Below are positions 7,340 to 46,300 of a stretch of DNA of 64,000 nucleotides, piece by piece (position 1 is the first letter of the stretch; each line of letters begins with the position of its first letter). A program made the translations under genes and the position numbers. The stretch lies in assembly GCA_029706075.1 (NCBI GenBank), contig JAINUG010000176.1:806001-870000 (forward strand), read 5' to 3'. The notes under the pieces are model-generated. The model made no database searches. It saw only the letters and a list, made by a program, of their open reading frames with translations, and was not told the origin of the DNA. The stretch is from Aldrovandia affinis (taxonomy: Eukaryota; Chordata; Actinopteri; Notacanthiformes; Halosauridae).

Positions 7340-7476
7340 AGGATTCACCGAAACAGGATTCACCGAGACAGGATTCACCGAGACAGGATTCACCGAGACA
7401 GGAGTCACAGAGACAGGATTCACCGAGACAGGAGTCACAGAGACAGGATTCACCGAGACAGGAGTCACCGAGACTG
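7340..7476 (+). repeat. 15-bp minisatellite (GACAGGATTCACCGA)
   Basis: About nine units of a 15-bp repeat with two alternating variants (GATTCACCGA and GAGTCACAGA). The period is a multiple of three, which gives an incidental open frame of repeated R-I/S-H-R-D. I do not regard it as a gene. Confidence 0.9.
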
Positions 7477-25321: not shown

Positions 25322-28300
25322 ACAGACACAATTCCTTTCAGCAACTCACAGGCATGTGGATTAGGACCAAACAATGATGTTCCAGAAGGCTGAATTAATA
25401 TTATTTTAAATTATTCCACTATCATTCCTTATTTTTATTTCCTCAAAGCTCTTTTTTGGGTTTTGTCAAAATCAGTTTGAAATTAATTAAACTGTGATGC
25501 AATTAAATTTAGAAAATGTACAAGCACAAGAATAATGGCATTCTATGACCTTAGGCTCTCTCCTATACATTTTGGGGAGCATTTTCCAACTCGCTTGACA
25601 AAAGAGAAGGGACTCTCCCTCTTTCTCTCGGGGGGTCTAGTGGAAGGGGTCCCATGTGTTGAGTCATGGCACAAATGTAAGTGCAGGGTAGCAGTATTTC
25701 TTTCCCATGGGTTAGTGTAAATGTCCACTCTACTGGGGAGGAGCCTCATTTAAGGTCTGTTGGAGTTCTTAGTGTCATGCTGTATCAATTTGATTTAGTG
25801 GATGCATAGAGGACTAAACATCCTCTGCATGCCTAGATCAGTTCTACTTATTTCCAGCAGCATAATACTAAACTAGTGAGGGCCTCCCTTCTACCTGTTG
25901 GGTTCTCTGATCACCATTTAATCATGGCTCAACTCTCTCCTGCCCCCGGCAGGCTTCTTGCTGGAAGTTCTATGTGGAGCTCTTACAAGATGCTGCCTTT
26001 GTTTGAAGAGTTCTGGGGTAGATATATTTTATTTTATTTTATTTCTTTAACCTTTATTTAACCAGGAAAAAGCCCATTGAGATACAATTTATTTTTCAAG
26101 GGAGACCTGGCCAAGAAAGGCCGCAGAGCAGCATTTAAAAGTTACGCTAACACACATATGACAATACAATACATTAAAACATCTTGCAAGACACCTATAC
26201 TGCTCAAGGGAATTAAGGGAACACTTAATCATCACAGTATAACACCAAGTCAATTAAACTTCAGGGATATCGATCTGTCCAGTTAGGAAGCGTAAACAAT
26301 TGTGAATCAATTTTACCTGCTTTGGTGCAAATGAAAGTGACAACAGGTGGACAGGAGAGGCAACAGCAAGACAACCCCCAAAAAGTAAATGGTTTTGCAG
26401 GTGGTGGCCATAGACCATTTATCTCTCCTTATCCTTCCTGACTGATTTTTCTCTAGTTTTGCATTTTACTAGTGCCCTTGTCACTACTGGTAGCATGAGG
26501 CGGTACCTGCAGCCCATTCAGGTTGCACAGGTAGTCCAGCTCCTCCAGGATGACACATCCATAAGTGCCGTTGGCAGGTTCGCTATTGGCGCCCCGTAAT
26601 CTTCACAGATAATGTGACAGACGTGAAAGAGTCTGAAGATGCCGTGGCGAACGTTATGCTGCCTGCAACATCATCCAGCATGACAGGTTTGGCGGTGGGT
26701 CAGTGATGGTCTGGGGAGGCATATCCTTGGAGGGCCGCACAAACCTCCACATGCTAGCCAACGGTACCCTGACTGCTGTTAGGTACCGGGATAAAATCCT
26801 CAGACCCATTGTCAGACCTTACGCTGGTGCAGTGGGCCCTGGGTTCTTCCTGGTGCAGGACAATGCCCAGCCTCATGTGGCCAGAGTGTGTAGGCAGTTC
26901 CTGGATGACGAAGGCATTGATGCCATTGACTGGCCCTCACGTTCCCCAGACCTGAATCCAATTGAGCACGTCTGGGACGTTATGTATCGTTGCATCCGCC
27001 ACCGCCAAGTAGCACCACAGACTGTCCAGGAGCTCACTGATGCCCTGATCCAGGTCTGGGAGAAGATCTCCCAGGACACCATCTGTCGTCTCATCAGGAG
27101 CATGCCCAGACATTGTCGGGAGTGTATCCAGGCACATGGGGGCCATACACATTACTGAGCCACATTATGAGTTGTCGTGATGAAATTCACACAAGTTGGA
27201 TCAGCCTGTGATCTAAATTTTTCACTTAGATTTTCGGTGTGATTTTGAATCCAGCCCTCAATGGGTTAATGATTTTGGTTTCCATTGACCGTTCTTACGT
27301 CATTTTGTTCTCGACGAAGTACACAATGTAATCAGTAAAGATTTTCAACTTGAATATTTCGTTCATCGAGATCCGCGATGTGTGATTTAAGTGTTCCCTT
27401 AAATTCTTTGAGCAGTACTTAAAGAATCCGGCCTATGGGAAACATCTACACACTTAAGGACATCTGCAACCAGGGTCATGAACTCCCTAAGTGGTACCAG
27501 CACCTCTAACTGGAGAACATTTTGTAAGGTGTTCCATGTCGTGGGTGCACAATATGAAAAGGCAGTTTTTCCTAATGTGGTAACAACCCTGGGGACTTTT
27601 AAAAGCAGCAGCCTGCTAGACCGTGTTTGGTAACTACTAATTGCAAAGTTAAGGAGGCTAAAAAGGTAACTGGGCAATTTGCACAGGATTGCCTTGTAGA
27701 TAAAAACACACAAATATAACTGTCTACGTGTAGCTAGAGAAGGCCATTCCACCATTTCATATAAACTACAATGATGGGTGGATGATCTGGCATTTGTGAT
27801 AAAGTGCAATGCTGCATGGTAGACAGAATCTAGTTTTCCCAGCAGAGATAATGCTGCATGCATGTACAACAAATCCCCATAGTCAATCACAGATAAAAAG
27901 GTGGCTTGAACAAGTTTATTTCTAACTTCAGAGGGGAAACAGGACAGGACGAAAACAAAAACCTAATTTTGGCCTAAGTTTCTTTAAAAGCTTGTCTATA
28001 TGTACATTGAAAGCCAACTTATCGTCCATCCATATACCAAGATACTTATAACATGTTACCCTTTCAATAGCTGCCCCCTTTAGTGTGACAAGGCCAAGAT
28101 TCTCTAAAATCTGAGAGTGAGCTCTAGTGAAGGTCATGAATTTGGTTTTCTGGGTATTTAAAATGAATTTGAGCCTATGCAGGGAAGTTTGCAATGATTT
28201 AAATGCAACCTGGAGCACTGTGTCATCTGCATAAAGATGAAACTTGGCTGGATGCATTCTGTTTCTTAGGTCATTTATAAAAATAGAGAATAAAACCGGT

Positions 28301-31300: not shown

Positions 31301-34300
31301 TAGAAATCTGACTTTGATTTCCTGATCATTCCAGTGCACTTGTTTCTCAAGGCTCTAAAAGAAGACCAATCAGCAGGTATATTAAACTGTCTTGCTTTGG
31401 CCCAAGCAATGTTTCACTGTCTGATTAGGTTTGATAAGTTATCTGAGAACCATGGATTGTCCCTTCCCCTGATCCTGAATTTCTTTACAGGGGTATGTTT
31501 ATCACAAATGGACATTAAAATATTTTAAAAATAATCCAAGGCAAGGTCAACATCAGGTATCAATTTGGTTTGCTCAATCCCACTATGGTACACATCATGC
31601 AAAAAGGCTTGTACATCAAAGTGTTTAGAAAACCTCTTATAAATAAAATGAGGTTTCACTTTTGGGAGTTTTACATTCCTCACACAAGCAATTACACAAT
31701 AATCACTGGCATCATTACAGAAAATCCCAATAGAATTATACTCTTAGTTCTGTCTATAAAATGAGATGGATCATTTGGAACACAAGGATTGCTCACATTC
31801 GGATCTTCTGCCAACAGGACATTCTTCAGTGGAGGCTAGAAGAGTTCTAGGGGACCTTGAGCTCCTAATGAGGGAGCCTTATTTTTGGGCAGGTGGGGGG
31901 GAAAGCTTTATAGTGTAGCCTGTATAAAGGTGAGGAACATCAGTGCTTTGCAGGGGGTCAAGGGACACCAGTGGTAGGAATTTTTTGTTGAGCCAAGGCA
32001 CCTTAGGTGGAGGGTGCTGTACAGGCTTCCCAAGCCTAAGAGGACAGGGATGCAGTGGAGGATAATCCACGAGGCCCTGGCAACAAACAGGCAACTGTCC
32101 CACTTTAACCCAGGGGTGGGGGAGGGGTGTCTGTTTTGCTCACTGTCAGAGACTGTTCCTTGTGCTTTTTATGCCTGTGCATTTTTTATCACGCTTTTAT
32201 TGCAGCAAATCTGAGTAAAGGTTTACTCTGTGGAGTGGTTAATTTTGGGGCCCAATACTTGTTAAGGCATCAGGCCAAGTGTGTTTTGTTAATTCTTTAT
32301 TTGGTCAGGCTAAACCAACGATCTGGGTAGCACAGCAGAAACAGGTATGAGGTAGTGGGTGTACTGACCCTGGGATTTTGTTTAAGGGGTTTGTCTCTGC
32401 ACGCCTTAGGGAAGAGTATGTGTACTACAGACTGGTTAATAATATTGAGGCTTTTCAGAGCATGTGGTGTCTGGGAGAGGCTTTGTGTTTTGCTGATGAG
32501 GAGGGAATGGATATATGTTTGTAATGTATGTGTGTGGGGCTGTTTGGGATTGTTTTTTACATTTCCTTAGGGTTATATTGTGGTTTATGCAATAGTGACC
32601 ATTTGTGGGTTTGGTTTGGTGGAGTGGGCAGGGGGGTATGTTTTGACTGGCGGGGGGCTTGACTCTATGTGATTAGGATGAGAGGATCTAAGAGGATATC
32701 AACAGAGCATCAAAAGTCAGTCTCTGTCTCACATGCACTTTTGTTTTCTGCAATCTTTCCAGGCTGTCTTCACTGTGCATGACACAGTTGCTCAGAAGAA
32801 CTTTGATCCTGTTCTGCCCCCACTGCCAGATGACCTGGAAGATGACCTGGATGAGGAGTCAGTGAAGATTGTGCGGTTGGTGAAGAATAAGGAGCCCCTG
32901 GTGAGTAACAGTGTGCAGGGACATGATGAGCAGTCCTTAGTGAATAACAGTGTTTAGGGACATGGTGAGGAGCCCCTAGTGAGTCACAGTGTTCAGGGAC
33001 ATGGTGAGGGGCCCTTAGTGAGTAACAGTTTTCAGGGACATGGTGAAGAGTCCTTAGTAACAGTATTCAGGGACATGGTGAAGAGTGTTCAGGGCCATGG
33101 TGAGGAGCCCCTAGTGAGTCACAGTGTTCAGGGACATGGTGAAGGGTCCTTAGTAAGTAACAGTTGTCAGGGACATGGTGAAGTGTCCTTAGTGAGTAAC
33201 AGTGTGCAGGGACATGATGAGGAGTCCTTAGTGAATCACAGTCTTCAGGGGCATGGTGAGGGGCCTTTAGTGAGTCACAGTGTTCAGGGACATGGTGAAA
33301 AGTCCTTAGTGAGTAACAGTGTTCAGGGACATGATGAAGAGCCCCTGGTGAGTAACAGTGTGCAGGGATATACTGTAGATATGATGTGGAGCCCCTAGTA
33401 AATGACAGTGTGCAGGGATATAGTGAGGAGCCCCTGTCCCCACATTGAAGGTCAGCTGGATTCAGATACTTTGCAGTGACATAACATGTCTGTATTTTAT
33501 TTTGAGGTGGGACTCATGATGCCAATCAGTCAGTCTTTGTTAGGAACTGTTCCCTTTCCTATATAAAGCCACAGAGGCAAAATGGAACAGCAAAGAGTAG
33601 AGGAAGCTTAAGCTGCTTTAGATATTTAGACCATTTTATTGACTGAGGAATGTACCACATATAATGATGTGAGTTGCATGAACCTGTTTGATGGAGTTAT
33701 CCATTCCCACTATGTCTTCCCCAGGGGGCTACCATCCGCCGTGACGAGACCACAGGGGTAGTGATCGTGGCCCGCATCATGAGGGGAGGGGCTGCTGACA
33801 GGAGTGGTGAGTTACCCAGGAAACGGAATAGATCAGAGCCAATCAGAACCGGGATAGGGTCTGACATGGATAGCTCGGCCTTCTCCCCATTGAGATTAGG
33901 TCAGATGTTTAGATCACCTTCGGATACCTTTTCATACTCATTAGTTGACCCCAGGTTGGGAACTACTGCTTTAGATTTTGGACCACCAAAACTGATCCCT
34001 GATCAGTTTCATATTTATTTACATAATGCTTAGGGTTAGGATTTAGTGAAATCATCCTGGAACTGCTGGTGGACACAGAAAAGTCCCAGACCCTTACGCA
34101 GACCCCCCTTCAAATGAAATAGAAAACCCTTAGCAAGAATGTGAAGTGAAATATGAGAACGTATATGAGATAGGATACCAAGACATCTGCATGCAGAGCC
34201 TAGTGAGAGGAAAAGTAGTGCCATCATATGGACTAAATTTGACAGAAAGTTGGGCCCACTGATAAAATGAAATTGATCAACCACAACAGCTGCTTGAGAC

Positions 34301-37300: not shown

Positions 37301-40300
37301 TAGGTTCTTATGGTTGATAGCATATAGTAGCCCCACCCATTATGGGGTTCATGAAGCTTCGCTCTCCCTTCACTTGTTGTAGAATCATATCCTTTTCCTC
37401 TTCAAACAGATCTACAGAAGTACATTTATCTCGTTACTAACTATTACCTGCTAGGCAATGTAATTATTTTTTGCAATTGTTTATTCATACTGTCACACTA
37501 ACAAATGTGGGTCGCTAATTGTTCACATTTTCACACCAGACTGAGGACAGTATTTGAAAATGACTGGTACACCCTCTATATGTAAGCAAATGGTGCATCA
37601 GCTAAATGACAAGTGTTTTATTATTTCAATGCCATTAAACCAAGCAGCTAAATAAATCTGTCAGTCAAACATGTCTCAGAGCATACTGTAGGAGGACCTT
37701 TGAATTTCTCCAAACCCTCACAACACGGAGAGAAATGTGGCAGCCTATGCCACTAAAATGATTTATACCAAACTAGTTTTAGTTATGCTGATTTGGGGTC
37801 AGCTGGAGAAGGAAGAGGAAGAAAACAGCTACAGTAATCCATTCATGCACTGGTTCCTGTCATTTCAGAGATAAGCCTGACCCTTAGCATAAAGGTCAGC
37901 TGTGCTTATTCTTGTCCTCATCTCTCATTTTACCAATATTCATGTGCATATTTTCTCAGACGACTGGCTCACAGGATAAAAATGGGAACACTTCAACACC
38001 CCAAGTCCCCCAAAAAACAGTTTTGTAAGTTTATATTTTCATTGTTGGTACTATCAAACTGTTCATCCTCACTATTTGGATTAGCAGAGTGGTGTAGTAT
38101 CAGTGTTAATGGTATAGATATTAGAATTTTCATTAGTAGAATTTTATGAAGTGGTGTAGCATTCATGTTAATAGTATAATACTATAATAGAGTAACATTG
38201 TTGATTCGAATAGTGTTACTGAATTATTGTTCCTGTAACATCCATATTCCAGTGTTCTGGCATTAGTATGGTTAACTGCTTCAGTGCCATTTAAAAAGAG
38301 GCACAGAAATAAATTCTAAATGTAAATGTATTTTGTGTCTAATCCAGATGATCATTAAGACAGGAGTAAAACACTGAAGTTAAAAAGGAAGATTAATTCA
38401 AACTAAACGTTGGCTTAAAAGGGAAAGGGGTGTCAAATGGTTTTTGTGGTTTCCTTTCAATCAGCAGCCAATTTAAGCCTCGGAAACAAGTTGTGTAGAC
38501 TCTAGTCAATTAATGACTTCAATGAATCACTTAAGTGCTGGAAGACACCACAAACCAGCAGACACTGTAGCCCCCCAGGACTGGAGTCTTACCCCTGGGT
38601 TAAAACAAGATCCAGGTGAATAAGGGCACTGGCCTTATTTCACCTTTTTTATTGGGCGTCTTGTGTGGAAGGCCAGGCCCTTGAAATGGCTAGGTGAGTG
38701 TTTAATGTTGCGGTGGTGCTTTATAGTACTTAATCCGTTGGTGATCTGTTTATGCTGAGCCAATTGAAGGCAAAGGGTTTAACAATATGTCAGCTAGCCC
38801 ATCGATGCCATGGAGTGCTACAACCACAAATTAATCTCCCTCTACTGAACCCCAACCTTCTTCAATGGCTCGGACCAGGCTAGATGTGATGTCACAGTGT
38901 GGGGGTTCCGGGGGAATTAAAATTTGAAATGAAAAAACCCAAGCGAATTAGCTTTCTGATTGGTATGAATGTCATTTGGGCGATGTAACAGTTTGGCAAC
39001 ATAAATTTGATCTGCACAGACGTGATCATTTTGTGACTAATTAGACTGATAAGACCACGGGGAGGGCCGGCCCTGTGTTTTATTTCACCAATGCCCACTG
39101 CCCCGTTGAAGGGGAAGCCCTTTGCCTTGGGGCTGTTTGTTACAGCTGTATGCTTTCTCTCTCCTCACTGCTAACACCAGATGACCAGAGCTGTGACAGA
39201 GGTGGGTACATCATCACAAAGAATGCATGCTTCTCATACAGAGATGCTCATTGTCTTTACTAAGATACAAAGATAGCCCAGCACTCTGCTCTGTTCTGGT
39301 GGCATTCCTGTGAGCATTAAGCAATACCATATGTCGAACCTCTAAGCACATTTAACTCACATTTAACCATATGTCGCTAGCCAATCCCAGGTTATTTCAT
39401 TTTGTGGCTAAACAGTCTTATCATAGTGACTGTTTTAGTTTCAACTACAGTTATATTTTGACTACAGTAAATGTCAATTTCAGGATGTGTTTTATCAATA
39501 CAGTACAATACAATACAATCCTCTGTATGTTTTGGCGATTCCTGGCCATGAAAGGATTCGGAAAATGTTGAGTTGTTGGTAATTGAGAGAGGCCTCTGAG
39601 CTCTATTCTCCTGAGGGTGGATCAGTCCCCAGGCGTGTTCCCTCTGGCCTCTAAACTGTAATCCCACCAGCTGTCGGCTGACAAGGCCAGAATTGAGATG
39701 GACTAATCTCCACTCTCTGAGCATCCCCAGGACAAGGAGTCCGATACGTACAGCAGGGTATAGCAGCTCACATGCTGATCCAAAAAGACTGCTACCAGGA
39801 GACGATAGTCACCTTCTTCCTCTCTTCCTCCTTCTTCTCCTTGTCTTGTTCACTCCCCTCTCTTCCTCTCCATCCTTCATTTTCATCCTCTTCCTTTGCT
39901 TATTGAAATATTTACACAATGAGAAAACAAACATTTGTGAAACACAAGAGAACCACTATTGATTTTGTTGTTTTGACTGCTGCTCTTAGTGCACAATTGT
40001 TCTATTTATCATGAGGGATTTTGTGTTATTCAGTGCAATAACTCTTGTTGGAGCGGTTTTGGTTGACAGCTTGTGAGCCCATATCAAATGCATTTCAGAC
40101 AATTTTTTATTAAAGTCTTTCAGATTTCTCTCAAATCTCTCAAGCAGTCTGGGCTGGCTGATGATACAGAAGATGAATACAGAAGCTTGTTAACCCTCTG
40201 AGGTCCGTGCTAAGCTTAGAGAAGGTTTGTGATTTTGGCGTGGTCTGATATTTATCTCAATTTCATCAACTTAACACACACTTACTCCAAAGTGTTTGAT

Positions 40301-43300
40301 ATTTTTATTTGAAGGACAATCACAGCTACATTTATATGCCATCAATAGTTTGGTCAGTATCATTTGCAGCTTGTAAATAGATCTACAAACACACAAGTTA
40401 TAAAGAGTACATTTTTCTGCCGTCACAAACGTTGTGAAAGCACACACTAAACTATAGTGACGAATTGTTTTGCCAATGTGCATTTGTTCATCAAGGTCTT
40501 GGTTATGTAAGGGTGTGAAAATAGTTTAGCACATATGAGATCTAAATAGCTAAAAACCTGTTTTTATCAGAACTGGTCACATTGGGAGGGCTATATGCTA
40601 ATTTACTGAATATTCATGATCCACACCTGAAAGATCTGTCAGATGGGCCATCTCTCTCTCTAAAAGGCCATCAGACAAAGACATCTTGCAGACTACGCAT
40701 TTCTTGCGACCAACAGAAGCCAGTTTGCCAACATCCAGAGTCTGTTTGGCAGTGGGCACAGGCACATGATCAAAAGTAGCCCGTTTTCTGGGTTTAAGAT
40801 ATTTATCTTTAAACGTCTGTAGGAAAACGAAAGCAAAATCCGTGTCTGCGAAGACACGGAAAGACATAAACAAAAAAAACAAAATAACCAACGATCAGGA
40901 ACAAACAAAACGTATCCAAAATCTCAGAATAAACTAAACGCTGGGAATCTAAACAACAATAAGCACACAAACAAACAAGTTCTCGAGAGTCAAGAAACAT
41001 TAATCACAATAGGTATTATCAAGCTAAGCTAGATAATGTCCAAGCACCGAAACAGAATGCCAGCTGGTTAAATATCCTCCCGTTAATTATTCACAGCAGT
41101 CCGCATTGATTCTGATTGTTTCCGTATAGCGTCACAAGACGCGGAATTCATATATTTTGGCCCCACGCCCCTCCCCGAGACTAGCACCTAGTTACCATGT
41201 CAATAGAAGGGGGACGGTACTAACAGGTAAAAAAGAGAGGAAAAGGCAAGGTTTACTTTTGGTCTAATTAACCTAATTAAAAAAATCTCATATTATTTTC
41301 CAGTGCTCAAATCTGAAAGTCACGATTCTAAGGTTTCTGTTTCTGCCGCGTGTGTATGATAAAATCTCGCGACGTTAGAAATAGTAATATACTTTTATTG
41401 CTGCTGGGATCATCTGCGATCCCGTCGACCTCAGGGGGTTAAAGTGTTCCTCAATGTGCTGAAGTCCCAAAGATTGTTGACATTGCCAGGAACTGGCACA
41501 GAAAACAACCTCTCCAACTTCAGAATGAACGTGTGATACTGTGTGCAGTGTGATTGTGTGCATTTTAACTTAATTTGGGGATGGACATATTACACCTACC
41601 CATACAGTCCCAAAAGGTTCTCCCATTGAGTCTATGGCAACAGAATATAACCACAACAGCAGGATTTTTATTTTAGTTTTAGTTTTCCTCAGACAGGTCA
41701 ATAAATTAATCTTCCTTATCACCAGTAAGAAATTGGCAATTTAAAAAATAAATAAATAAAGAGTCAAACTAAGGACTTGGTGAAGTAAATGCCACTACAG
41801 CATTGTAGTGTGTTTTGCTCATATTTACTTCCCAAATTCAAATTACACCCCCTCCCCACTCCAAACATATCATTGGTGGTAGCCCATCTGCCTGGCATTT
41901 CTGATTGGCTCAAGAATGCCTGAGGAGTGTTCAGGATTCAACATGCAGGATCTTGACAAGATGTAGCCTATCCTGTTATCTCCTCTTCACTTTAAATTAC
42001 CCTAATAGCCTTGACCGCTCAGGAAGTTTGCATGGTGGAATAGAGCTCAGTGTCCAGTTATATATGTATATATATATGCCATTTAGTAGACGCTTTTATC
42101 CAAAGCGACTTACAGTAGTGAATGCATACATTTTTCAGTATATGTGGTCCCAGTGGGAATTGAACCCACAAGTTTATCCCTTTGTTTTGAGTGTTTTATA
42201 TCAGCCATCACATAGGCTGTGGGCCTCAGTAGCCTTTCTGAATCCACTCTCATCCACTCTGCCTGTCCTCACCTTTGCTCGCCAACTCTCTCCAGACCCC
42301 TTCACTCTGTGACAGTGTCTTCCAGGTCTCTCACCCTCTGTTAATCCCCTCTTCTCCCTGCTTGCTTTCCTACAGAGGACTGTGACTGTGAGGGCTATTT
42401 CAATGGACAGTACATAGGTGAGACCACGCATGCCTATTCAGCTTTGCCAATCGTCCCTGCCAATCGCAGCTGGGCCATATATGGTGCAAGAGCCACTGTA
42501 TGTTGGCATGGTGTGCTGAGGGTTGCATTGCCTGGGGGTGGGTGGGTTTACGTTGGACAGAGTGAATGTCAAGAGGGGAGGGGCATGCCATTGGTCATCA
42601 ACCATCAATCACAGAATAGTTCAGCTTCTTAAAGGTGACTAGGGCCCAGATCTGTCTCTGACCTTCAAATCTGTACTGAAAAACTGAAAAAAACTAAACA
42701 AGCTTGCTGGATTAACGAATACCATTTCTCAAAGAGAGAAGGTGCTGTCTTTCACACCCACGACTCTTCAAGAGAATGTATATTCTTTTAAAAACTTTTG
42801 AAATTGAGAATAGGGTGTTAAATATTCTGTATAGTAATTCCATTTTGGACATAGCTTGGTCATTGTTACATGCCCAGATATGTTTCCTTTAGTATTCTCC
42901 AGATTACAAGGGTAAAAGTTACATCATTCAGTGCAATGGTGCCCATGCATATGACCATAATGAATCTGGTAAGTGTCTAAATGCACATTTAGGAAACTAA
43001 TGTTCACTACGAAAACAAAAATGGTTTGCGTCAACATAAACATTGTTGGTCATATTCTATCCAGAATGTACTGTATCTCAACATTTCCCGCCATCTGTTT
43101 TTGCCTGTTGATCACACTTCCTTTCCTAATGTGACAATTCAATTCCTTGCTCTGACCTGTAACTCCAGGGGATTATTGAAATCATGTGAATATGGAATGA
43201 TCTAAACACAACTGGATTTCAAATGTTCTATCAACTGGAAAAAATGAACTGCCTGAATTGGAGTAGTATCCTTTCATGCCACATGTCAATCTTTGCAACC

Positions 43301-46300
43301 AGAAAAATGATGCTATAAAATTGTCAACTTAATCAAGAAAAACATTGTGAAGATGTGAAGTCAAATGCAAATTTGTTGTGAGGGAAATCTGAAGTACTAA
43401 ATTATACTAGAGGGGTTAGTAGATAGCTTCTCAGATTAAATCATATACAAAGAAAATACATAACCGGCTGAATTACAAAATATGGACATGCACATTAATT
43501 TAGAAATACTTAGTCAGTGACAAACCAAAATTGCAAGTGGCAGAATATTGTAGGCAGCTGAAACTGTATCCCATAATAAAACCCTAAATTTATGCTTGTA
43601 CTATCACTGAGCAATGGCAAAGACTGTAATTGGGAGACAGAGTTAATGGCGTAACTTTAATGATAGGAATAATATGATTATTAAAATTATTATACCTGAC
43701 CCAGCAGTGTTTAGATCATCTAAAGCTACACTGCTTGTGGCTGTGGGAGCTCATGCCTTTGCTTTCATGCCCAGGGGCCCTCAGGGGCCATGCTTTGGAT
43801 GCATCGCACACTCAACCCAGCACGTGTTTCCTTTGTTCCCTCACATTAGAAGCATAAGGCTAGTTGTGTAATGGTCTAATACTGGTTATAGTTTCTCCAA
43901 AGTGTAAACCAGTCGCGCCTTCCGGTGGCCAGGCTTTTTCATGGGAGTTTTATTCAGGTACTGTCCCAGTTTTTCCCTGGCATAAGCAAAGCGTCATTTG
44001 TCCTATTTTTTATGCTATGCTCTCGTTTCAAGATGCACTGAAGTCAAAGTAAAGTCCTCATGTTGCTTTGCTGCAGTGTGGGGGCTATAGTGCTTTGATG
44101 TGCCAATGCAATAAATGTGTTTGCAACTGTGGCCCCTTATAAACTTGGGAAAAAAGTGATTCAGATTTTGAAACCATTCATGTTGAAACCAGAGCAAAGC
44201 CTTGGCTGAAAGAGAAAAGGTGCTTTTATGTTAAGCTGTTGCAGAAGCAGCCTAATTTACTTACTCAGGATATCTAAAATAAATATATTTTGTAACATAT
44301 CACCTTGTGGAAAAGGTTTTGAACACAGTTGTTAGCAAGTACTTGTTAGATGTCATGGTTGAAGTGGGCTGCCATTTCTTGGAGAATATTGGCAGGACGG
44401 GGGTAATCTTTGTGGTAAAACTATCCCCCCAGCACTGGCAGTTAATTTCTCTCACAGATAACTTGGTTACCCAATACTATTATACTCTTATCTTGCTGGG
44501 TTTGATGCTGTGTCCTTTTTTATTAAACTTGGCCCTGTGGTTTGTTTTGATTTCTATTAGTGCAAAAATGGGGTTTGTTAATAACATTGTGCACCAAACA
44601 TTCTACATGCCAAAACCTAAACTGAAGACAACAGCCAACAAGGTATTTGTGTATTTTTTTTGTTTTGGGACAGTGGTCTGCATGGTTATTTGAACCTTAT
44701 TATTTATCAATCACATGACTGCCTATCTGTCTGTCTGTCAGCTGGCCTAAGGCGAAGTTTCCGTCTGAGCCGGAAGGACCGGCAGGGATCTCCGGGAGAG
44801 ACCTGTGCCCAGGAGTCCAACGAGTCAGAGTTCCTGACTTATGAGGAAGTGACGCGGTATCAGCACCAGTCCAATGAAAGACCCCGTCTAGTGGTGCTGA
44901 TTGGTAAGACGCCCTAGCGTCTGCCCTTAGTGATTCCCATACTTTTTTGTAGTTCTATACACATCTACCAACATGCTGTCTGATACATATCTACCATCAT
45001 GCTGTCCTATACAATCTACCAGCATGCTGTTCTATACACATCTACCTGCATGCTGTACTATACACATCTACCATCGTGCTGTCCCATACACCTCTGCCAA
45101 CATGCTGTCTGATACATATCTACCATCGTGCTGTCCTATACACATCTAGCTACATTTAGTCCTATACTTATTGTCGGAATAGTGAAATTTGAATAAAAAT
45201 AGTCTATTCCCTGAATCCAGGAGCCTTAACAATCAAATGCCCTTGTTTAAAGTTGAATACTGAACACAAGTGGTATTGTATATGTATATGTATTAAAACC
45301 CCTCACTTATCCTCCATGTAAAATATATTTATTTGATTTAATATAATAATTACTAAACAGGATGCCAATTATCAATGAAATCACCAAATTCATTGATAGG
45401 CAGAGCAATCTGGTGGATCAACCTTCATCAAAATATACAACTCACAATTAAATTAAAATTGACAGCTGCTTTATTAAGTTACAACAGTTAGACAAAGACA
45501 GAATATTCAGCGTCCAATCTACATATGTACACATGTTGACCTCCACTTTCAATCTGGTGGGCCATAATTATTTTCTCCATGATCCATATTTTCCAGCTCA
45601 TAGGTAGAACCCTGAAATTGTGCTATGTGACATAGGTTTGTAAGTTTGGTGTGCTGATCTAATATGGACTGCACTGGCTGCCAAAGCTACATACCTAAGT
45701 GCTCTGGTTTCATTCACAGAGCAATGATGGCCCCATGCCTGTCCATGAGCATCCAGTTTAGGCCGGGCCACATTCTGTCTGCCTGTGCAAGATGACCAAA
45801 ATGCACCTCCACGACAATATCTACCTACATGCTGTCCAATACACATCTACCTACATGCTGTCTGATACATACAGTGAGCACCATAATTCATTGGACAGTG
45901 ACACATTTTTTGTTATTTTGGTTCTGTACTCTAGCACTTTGAGTATGATACAATGACAATGAGCTGAGGGTATTTTCATCCATATCGGATGAACCGTTTA
46001 GAAATGACAGCACCTTTCGTACATGGTCCCCCTATTTAGAAATCAAGATTTAGACAGCTTTCATCTGTCACTCTCTCTCCATATATTTATTTATTTATTT
46101 ATTTATTTGACAGGGTATATGTATGGTAGATTCAGTTTAATATACATTGTCCACTTCCAGCTTTTGTCACATTTTATGTTGAGATGAATTGATTCAGTTT
46201 CGATGAGAGCAGTATTGACAAGTGACTCTAAGGTGTGAGTGACACTGACAAAGTTAGGTCTTTGATTCAGATTTTCTGCCATTACAGGCTCCCTGGGTGC

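Follow-up and report, generated by a model that had tools for sequence, protein, structure and literature searches.

A 39-bp minisatellite straddling a splice donor of an mpp3-like gene in Aldrovandia affinis

An mpp3-like MAGUK gene of the halosaur Aldrovandia affinis carries a 39-bp minisatellite laid directly across the end of one of its exons. This array is very probably a boundary-spanning minisatellite of the 'mirage' type, in which the original donor at 32900/32901 would be the one used and the copies would be removed as intron. Judged from sequence comparison, the array originated from the junction and its copies have weakened as donors; from these observations we infer its donor use, its timing and its mechanism of growth.

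The array and the exon edge

The gene lies on the + strand of the window, by which we mean the whole 64,000-nucleotide stretch that was analysed (C846:806001-870000 of a 1.22-Gb genome; positions below are those of the window unless another contig is named). Its name, mpp3, follows the initial annotation and is provisional. Thirteen exon pieces were placed between ~19.6 and 46.4 kb, and each of them has a collinear match in an ohnologue located on contig C335. Searching Pfam with the mpp3-like query identified L27 (5.6e-15), PDZ (1.9e-13) and SH3_2 (9.8e-9) domains, indicating that the MAGUK p55 (MPP) domain set is present, and the best PDB relatives of the protein were MAGUK p55 members 5 and 7. 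The exon bearing the array, numbered exon 5 in the initial annotation, is joined to the next at EPL/GAT, between residues 73 and 74 of the typed query. Pfam places the PDZ domain at residues 66-140, confirming that the junction falls within this domain, at a site which we presume to be the ligand loop.

Wrap-around alignment resolved the array (Table 1) into 12 full and 2 damaged units, with a part unit at each end. Only 11 bp of it are exonic and 535 bp are intronic, with unit 1 straddling the exon end. In Tandem Repeats Finder (TRF) the 39-bp period gave two rows, one scoring 252 (32890-33085) and one scoring 374 (33084-33368), with further rows representing multiples and part units, while the top score at period >=10 in 200 dinucleotide shuffles of the window was 60. 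An array of about 14 units with this period, as first proposed for the exon end, is thus well above what shuffled sequence produces. When the genome was searched with the array, using a program that skips very common words, a single place in the 1.22 Gb was found.

Table 1. Features of the array and its surroundings (window positions; donors are written exon/intron)
Feature	Position	Strand	Details and basis
mpp3-like exon (exon 5 of the initial annotation)	32763..32900	+	46 codons, end KNKEPL, phase 0; collinear with C335
39-bp minisatellite, 14 units and 2 part units	32890..33435	+	TRF, wrap-around alignment, shuffles
True donor CTG/GTGAGT	32901..32906	+	6.28, U1 duplex -10.8 kcal/mol; 6.76 with 24-donor matrix
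Intron, 824 bp (535 bp array)	32901..33724	+	exon placement and array alignment
Proposed in-frame alternative donor TTA/GTGAAT, poor	32940..32945	+	-2.18 general matrix; -2.66 own matrix, rank 24 of 67 GTs
In-frame TAG	32955..32957	+	translation; included in transcripts that use any donor beyond it
Second-register donor-like ATG/GTGAGG	first at 32965..32970; also 33004, 33100, 33256	+	past TAG
Donor of unit 33339 (first 30 bases as in unit 1)	33348..33353	+	alignment, donor scoring
Next exon, PDZ domain continues, starts GAT	33725..33806	+	exon placement and Pfam

An in-register GT was found in 12 of the 14 units (GTGAGT in eight, GTAAGT in one, GTGAAT in two and GTAAAT in one), consistent with the earlier statement that most units keep a GTGAGT-like donor, and was lost from the damaged units at 33048 and 33080. 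Pairwise identity among the 12 full units averaged 0.83 (range 0.72-0.97). Units 1 and 33339 are 0.95 identical and share 30 consecutive bases (32892-32921 and 33339-33368); an exact copy of the true junction had been annotated at 33341..33353, and such a copy does exist, although its extent was stated too short. These two units are also the only full ones with G at position -1, the other 10 of the 12 sharing an A, a pattern read from the units of one allele. The array is known from one assembly and could in principle be an artefact of it, a reading that we regard as scarcely credible: the full units differ from each other and occupy one place in a 2.08-Mb contig, whereas units produced by stuttering during assembly should be almost the same.

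To place the junction among its relatives, protein searches of the genome were used, and at least five MPP-family genes in which an exon ends here were identified (on C846, C335, C225, C1778 and C102). In all five the donor directly follows PL, indicating that the intron predates these MPP duplications. The C335 ohnologue has a single donor here, its junction reading GAGCCCCTG on the exon side and GTTAGTCACAG on the intron side, and the last 9 exon bases, GAGCCCCTG ("EPL"), are present at both the C846 and the C335 junctions. No such array was found in the 742-bp C335 intron, where the sole TRF row was a 10-bp repeat of 1.9 copies (score 31), and the array showed no similarity to that intron (top local match 11 bases, score 17, against a shuffle mean of 19.5). 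Because GAGCCCCTG stands at the C335 junction and the intron position is common to five paralogues, the junction came first and the intronic copies second. On this comparison the intronic copies are derived from a genuine exon edge, not the reverse, which upholds the original proposal of amplification from a true junction.

Intron position +7 is C in four units and in the C335, C225 and C102 donors, and A in unit 1 and in C1778, suggesting that unit 1 has perhaps not kept the founder sequence intact. The simplest history would be one in which a mutated copy was amplified while a few units kept the older sequence. We propose that a ~39-bp segment of the mpp3-like gene, comprising the last ~11 exon and ~28 intron bases, underwent tandem duplication, the simplest timing being after the split from the ohnologue, and that the array would then have grown by slippage or unequal exchange, mainly from a copy in which the -1 G had already become A. 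An older array might once have been present in the C335 copy and later lost, which makes this timing provisional.

Donor strength of the copies

Donors were scored with two tables, a general donor matrix (together with U1 pairing) and our own matrix built from 24 donors of these MPP genes, one member of which (C1778 44083, CGT/GTGTAC) is possibly misplaced. With the general matrix the true donor ranked top, tied only with 33348; the four ATG/GTGAGG sites scored 4.99 and the other in-register copies between -2.18 and 2.94. With the 24-donor matrix the true donor and 33348 again led and the four ATG/GTGAGG sites came next (6.21). An earlier matrix of 17 donors had placed ATG/GTGAGG (6.42) above the true donor (5.39), so their order is sensitive to the few donors in the table. 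With the ATG/GTGAGG sites and 33348 scoring near or equal to the first donor, it is not secure that this donor alone is used. Translation placed the in-frame TAG that had been predicted to limit donors past 32957, and all sites beyond that position read it; the four ATG/GTGAGG sites would additionally shift the frame. Any extra splicing should therefore be unproductive.

One reading of these copies is that several of them are real donors, producing mpp3 isoforms with inserts in what we presume to be the PDZ ligand loop. The human IFI6 (6-16) minisatellite, in work attributed to Turri in 1995, reportedly gives multiple splice donors. Like the array described here, it places additional donors behind an exon; two of its downstream repeat units are reported to be used (PMC4526556), whereas the copies in the mpp3-like gene are mostly weak and putative. 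Retention of GT in register in 12 of the 14 units and a period that is a multiple of 3 are compatible with such isoforms. We nonetheless consider this reading very improbable, as 32940, the one in-register site that precedes the stop, is poor in both tables, inserts from sites past 32957 contain a stop, and the -1 base is A in 10 of the 12 full units compared with G in 23 of the 24 family donors. The initial annotation had envisaged the 32940 site as an alternative donor adding 13 codons. It does precede the in-frame TAG, but with scores of -2.18, -2.91 (17-donor matrix) and -2.66 it is too weak, and the 13-codon isoform was rejected. Nor was the wider notion of competing donors that generate in-frame isoforms borne out: 32940 is weak, 10 of the 12 full units lack the -1 G, and 33348 lies past the TAG.

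A further possibility is that the ATG/GTGAGG sites and 33348 divert transcripts to stop-bearing products, such that the length of the array sets the dose of mpp3. Their scores are in keeping with this (4.99 and 6.21 for the four ATG/GTGAGG sites; 33348 equal to the true donor at 6.28 and 6.76). However, the fuller 24-donor matrix puts the true donor first, the ohnologue on C335 has no such array, length variation is without support in a single assembly, and the donor positions are not specially conserved within the unit. In the latter comparison the donor motif ranked 14 of 39 windows, and selection on this motif inside the array was ruled out. Control of dose by array length is thus, in our estimation, very unlikely. 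An extended version, in which A in place of G at -1 was in addition retained for taming the in-register copies and the MPP family was repeatedly tuned by boundary arrays (in one case at the homologous intron's acceptor), appears highly improbable.

Overall, the array is most likely inert intron behind one used donor. The spliceosome would keep the outermost, original donor at 32900/32901 and the array copies would be spliced out with the intron. If 33348 or an ATG/GTGAGG site were used now and then, the resulting transcripts would contain a stop and are expected to be degraded; some unproductive splicing of this kind from the copies may occur.

Possible seeding of arrays by splice junctions

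An origin from a junction raises the question of whether minisatellites of this genome start preferentially at splice junctions, which seems unlikely. Two other arrays at boundaries of MPP-family genes, at an acceptor (C102) and at a donor (C225), are in favour of it, as is the excess of triple AGGTGAGT matches over the reversed word (1748 vs 453). In contrast, the strongest donor word, AGGTAAGT, gave 229 vs 238, and a permuted word, AGTGAGGT, gave 995 vs 428. These triple-word counts are of overlapping matches, not of arrays; by our own count, the matches listed (to C224:268257) comprise 9 distinct arrays for AGGTGAGT, beside what appears to be a satellite family, and 10 for the permuted word, 2 for the reversed word and 0 for AGGTAAGT. 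As a single word, AGGTGAGT was not commoner than its reverse (50371 vs 53958). A genome-wide preference of minisatellites for donors was rejected on the AGGTAAGT and permuted-word counts, despite the 1748 vs 453.

Junctions were also compared directly with the positions of arrays. The comparison covered 40 junctions, those of the exons that could be located in C335, C1778 and C225; C102 is represented by short loci only. Of these 40, 1 lay inside an array, against 0.91 expected under random shifts (P 0.46), and 2 lay within 15 bp of an array, against 1.04 expected (P 0.30). The window's 16 junctions, which include the array under study, were left out of this count for that reason; adding them gave 2 of 56 in arrays against 1.53 expected. 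An AG/GT check found 11 of the 56 junction coordinates to be one or two bases off, and the overlaps were unchanged. The expected value of 0.91 in 40 suggests that ~2% of junctions in this minisatellite-rich genome would lie in arrays by chance. In the five genes this intron has nine junctions besides the one described here; with a rate of ~2.3% for each, ~0.2 further arrays are expected among them, and the presence of one at the homologous intron is a mild coincidence, noted post hoc.

Comparison with known repeats and other arrays

Lancelets and humans have both yielded repeats that copy an exon boundary, to which the mpp3-like array adds an apparent fish case. In the amphioxus Adh3 and globin genes (BflGb6 and BflGb9), minisatellite-like 'mirages' span exon-intron boundaries at either the 5′ or the 3′ side, and they are described as length-unstable, with splicing undisturbed according to RT-PCR and Adh3 data (PMC3087553). 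Troponin C and PGBD5 were added as mirage genes in another paper (PMC3902484), and the Adh and TnC mirages are described as being without aberrant mRNAs (PMC3087553, PMC3902484). The BflGb6 units are 81-100% identical, with array ends that escape homogenisation. The unit described here likewise spans an exon-intron boundary, carries copies of the splice signal in many repeats (GT in register in 12 of 14) and traces to a genuine boundary, as indicated by the single C335 junction and the intron common to five paralogues. Differences are also apparent: haplotype instability and RT-PCR were shown for the amphioxus mirages, whereas the present array is known from genome sequence and lies in a presumed vertebrate gene; and the BflGb6 units measure 150-160 bp in 6 and 3 copies, compared with 39 bp and 14 units here.

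Human counterparts are not limited to IFI6. A paper by Lievers from 2001 reportedly links, in its title, the VNTR of CBS to reduced CBS activity. The 31-bp unit of this VNTR (c.1444_1467+7) runs from exon 13 into intron 13 with the start of the donor inside it, much as in the mpp3-like gene, and it is present in 16-21 units and varies between people, unlike an array seen in one assembly (PMC2630376, PMC1395315). Internal tandem repeats of human segmental duplications also have units averaging ~30 bp, lie at boundaries and can alter splicing; they were found via recent paralogues and transcripts, whereas ours was found in the genome only (PMC2812944). In seabream, the growth hormone gene (GH) has intron minisatellites of varying number, and the passage cited does not state that they span junctions (PMC3045353). 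Among the matches listed in a search of titles and abstracts of the open-licence literature, we recognised no boundary-spanning case in a fish. The array falls into one class with the mirages of amphioxus and the human IFI6 and CBS repeats. Since paralogues give the direction of change for its exonic portion, it provides a clear case of a minisatellite begun at a splice junction, apparently in a fish, and offers a natural test of how a single donor is chosen by the spliceosome when some twelve close copies lie beside it.

Several other repeats were observed in the course of this analysis. The paralogue on C102 (L024:966-1521) has a 66-bp array of 8.5 copies lying across the homologous intron's acceptor; it contains eight acceptor copies, the last 30 intron bases of which are identical, and all 7 of the 7 upstream copies reach a stop within 30 codons. 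On C225 (L026-L039, reverse strand), a 96-bp array of 2.6 copies at 42852-43097 begins with the preceding exon's donor (AAG/GTGAGG). Both of these paralogues we take to be mpp7-like. A third paralogue, on C1778 (L011-L015), has a 51-bp array at 39281-39490 that stops 10 bp short of a PDZ exon.

Elsewhere, a satellite of ~47 bp with AGGTGAGT in each unit was found on C23, C24, C78 and C128 (and on C205 by spacing only). Within the window, a 15-bp array of 9 copies at 7340-7474 would translate to a five-residue repeat in several frames, and an open frame at 26637-27155 has several relatives in the C1778 piece and presumably resembles a Tc1/mariner transposase. Finally, a 26-bp array of 7.8 copies at 44954-45155 begins ~50 bp past the probable end of a guanylate-kinase-region exon.
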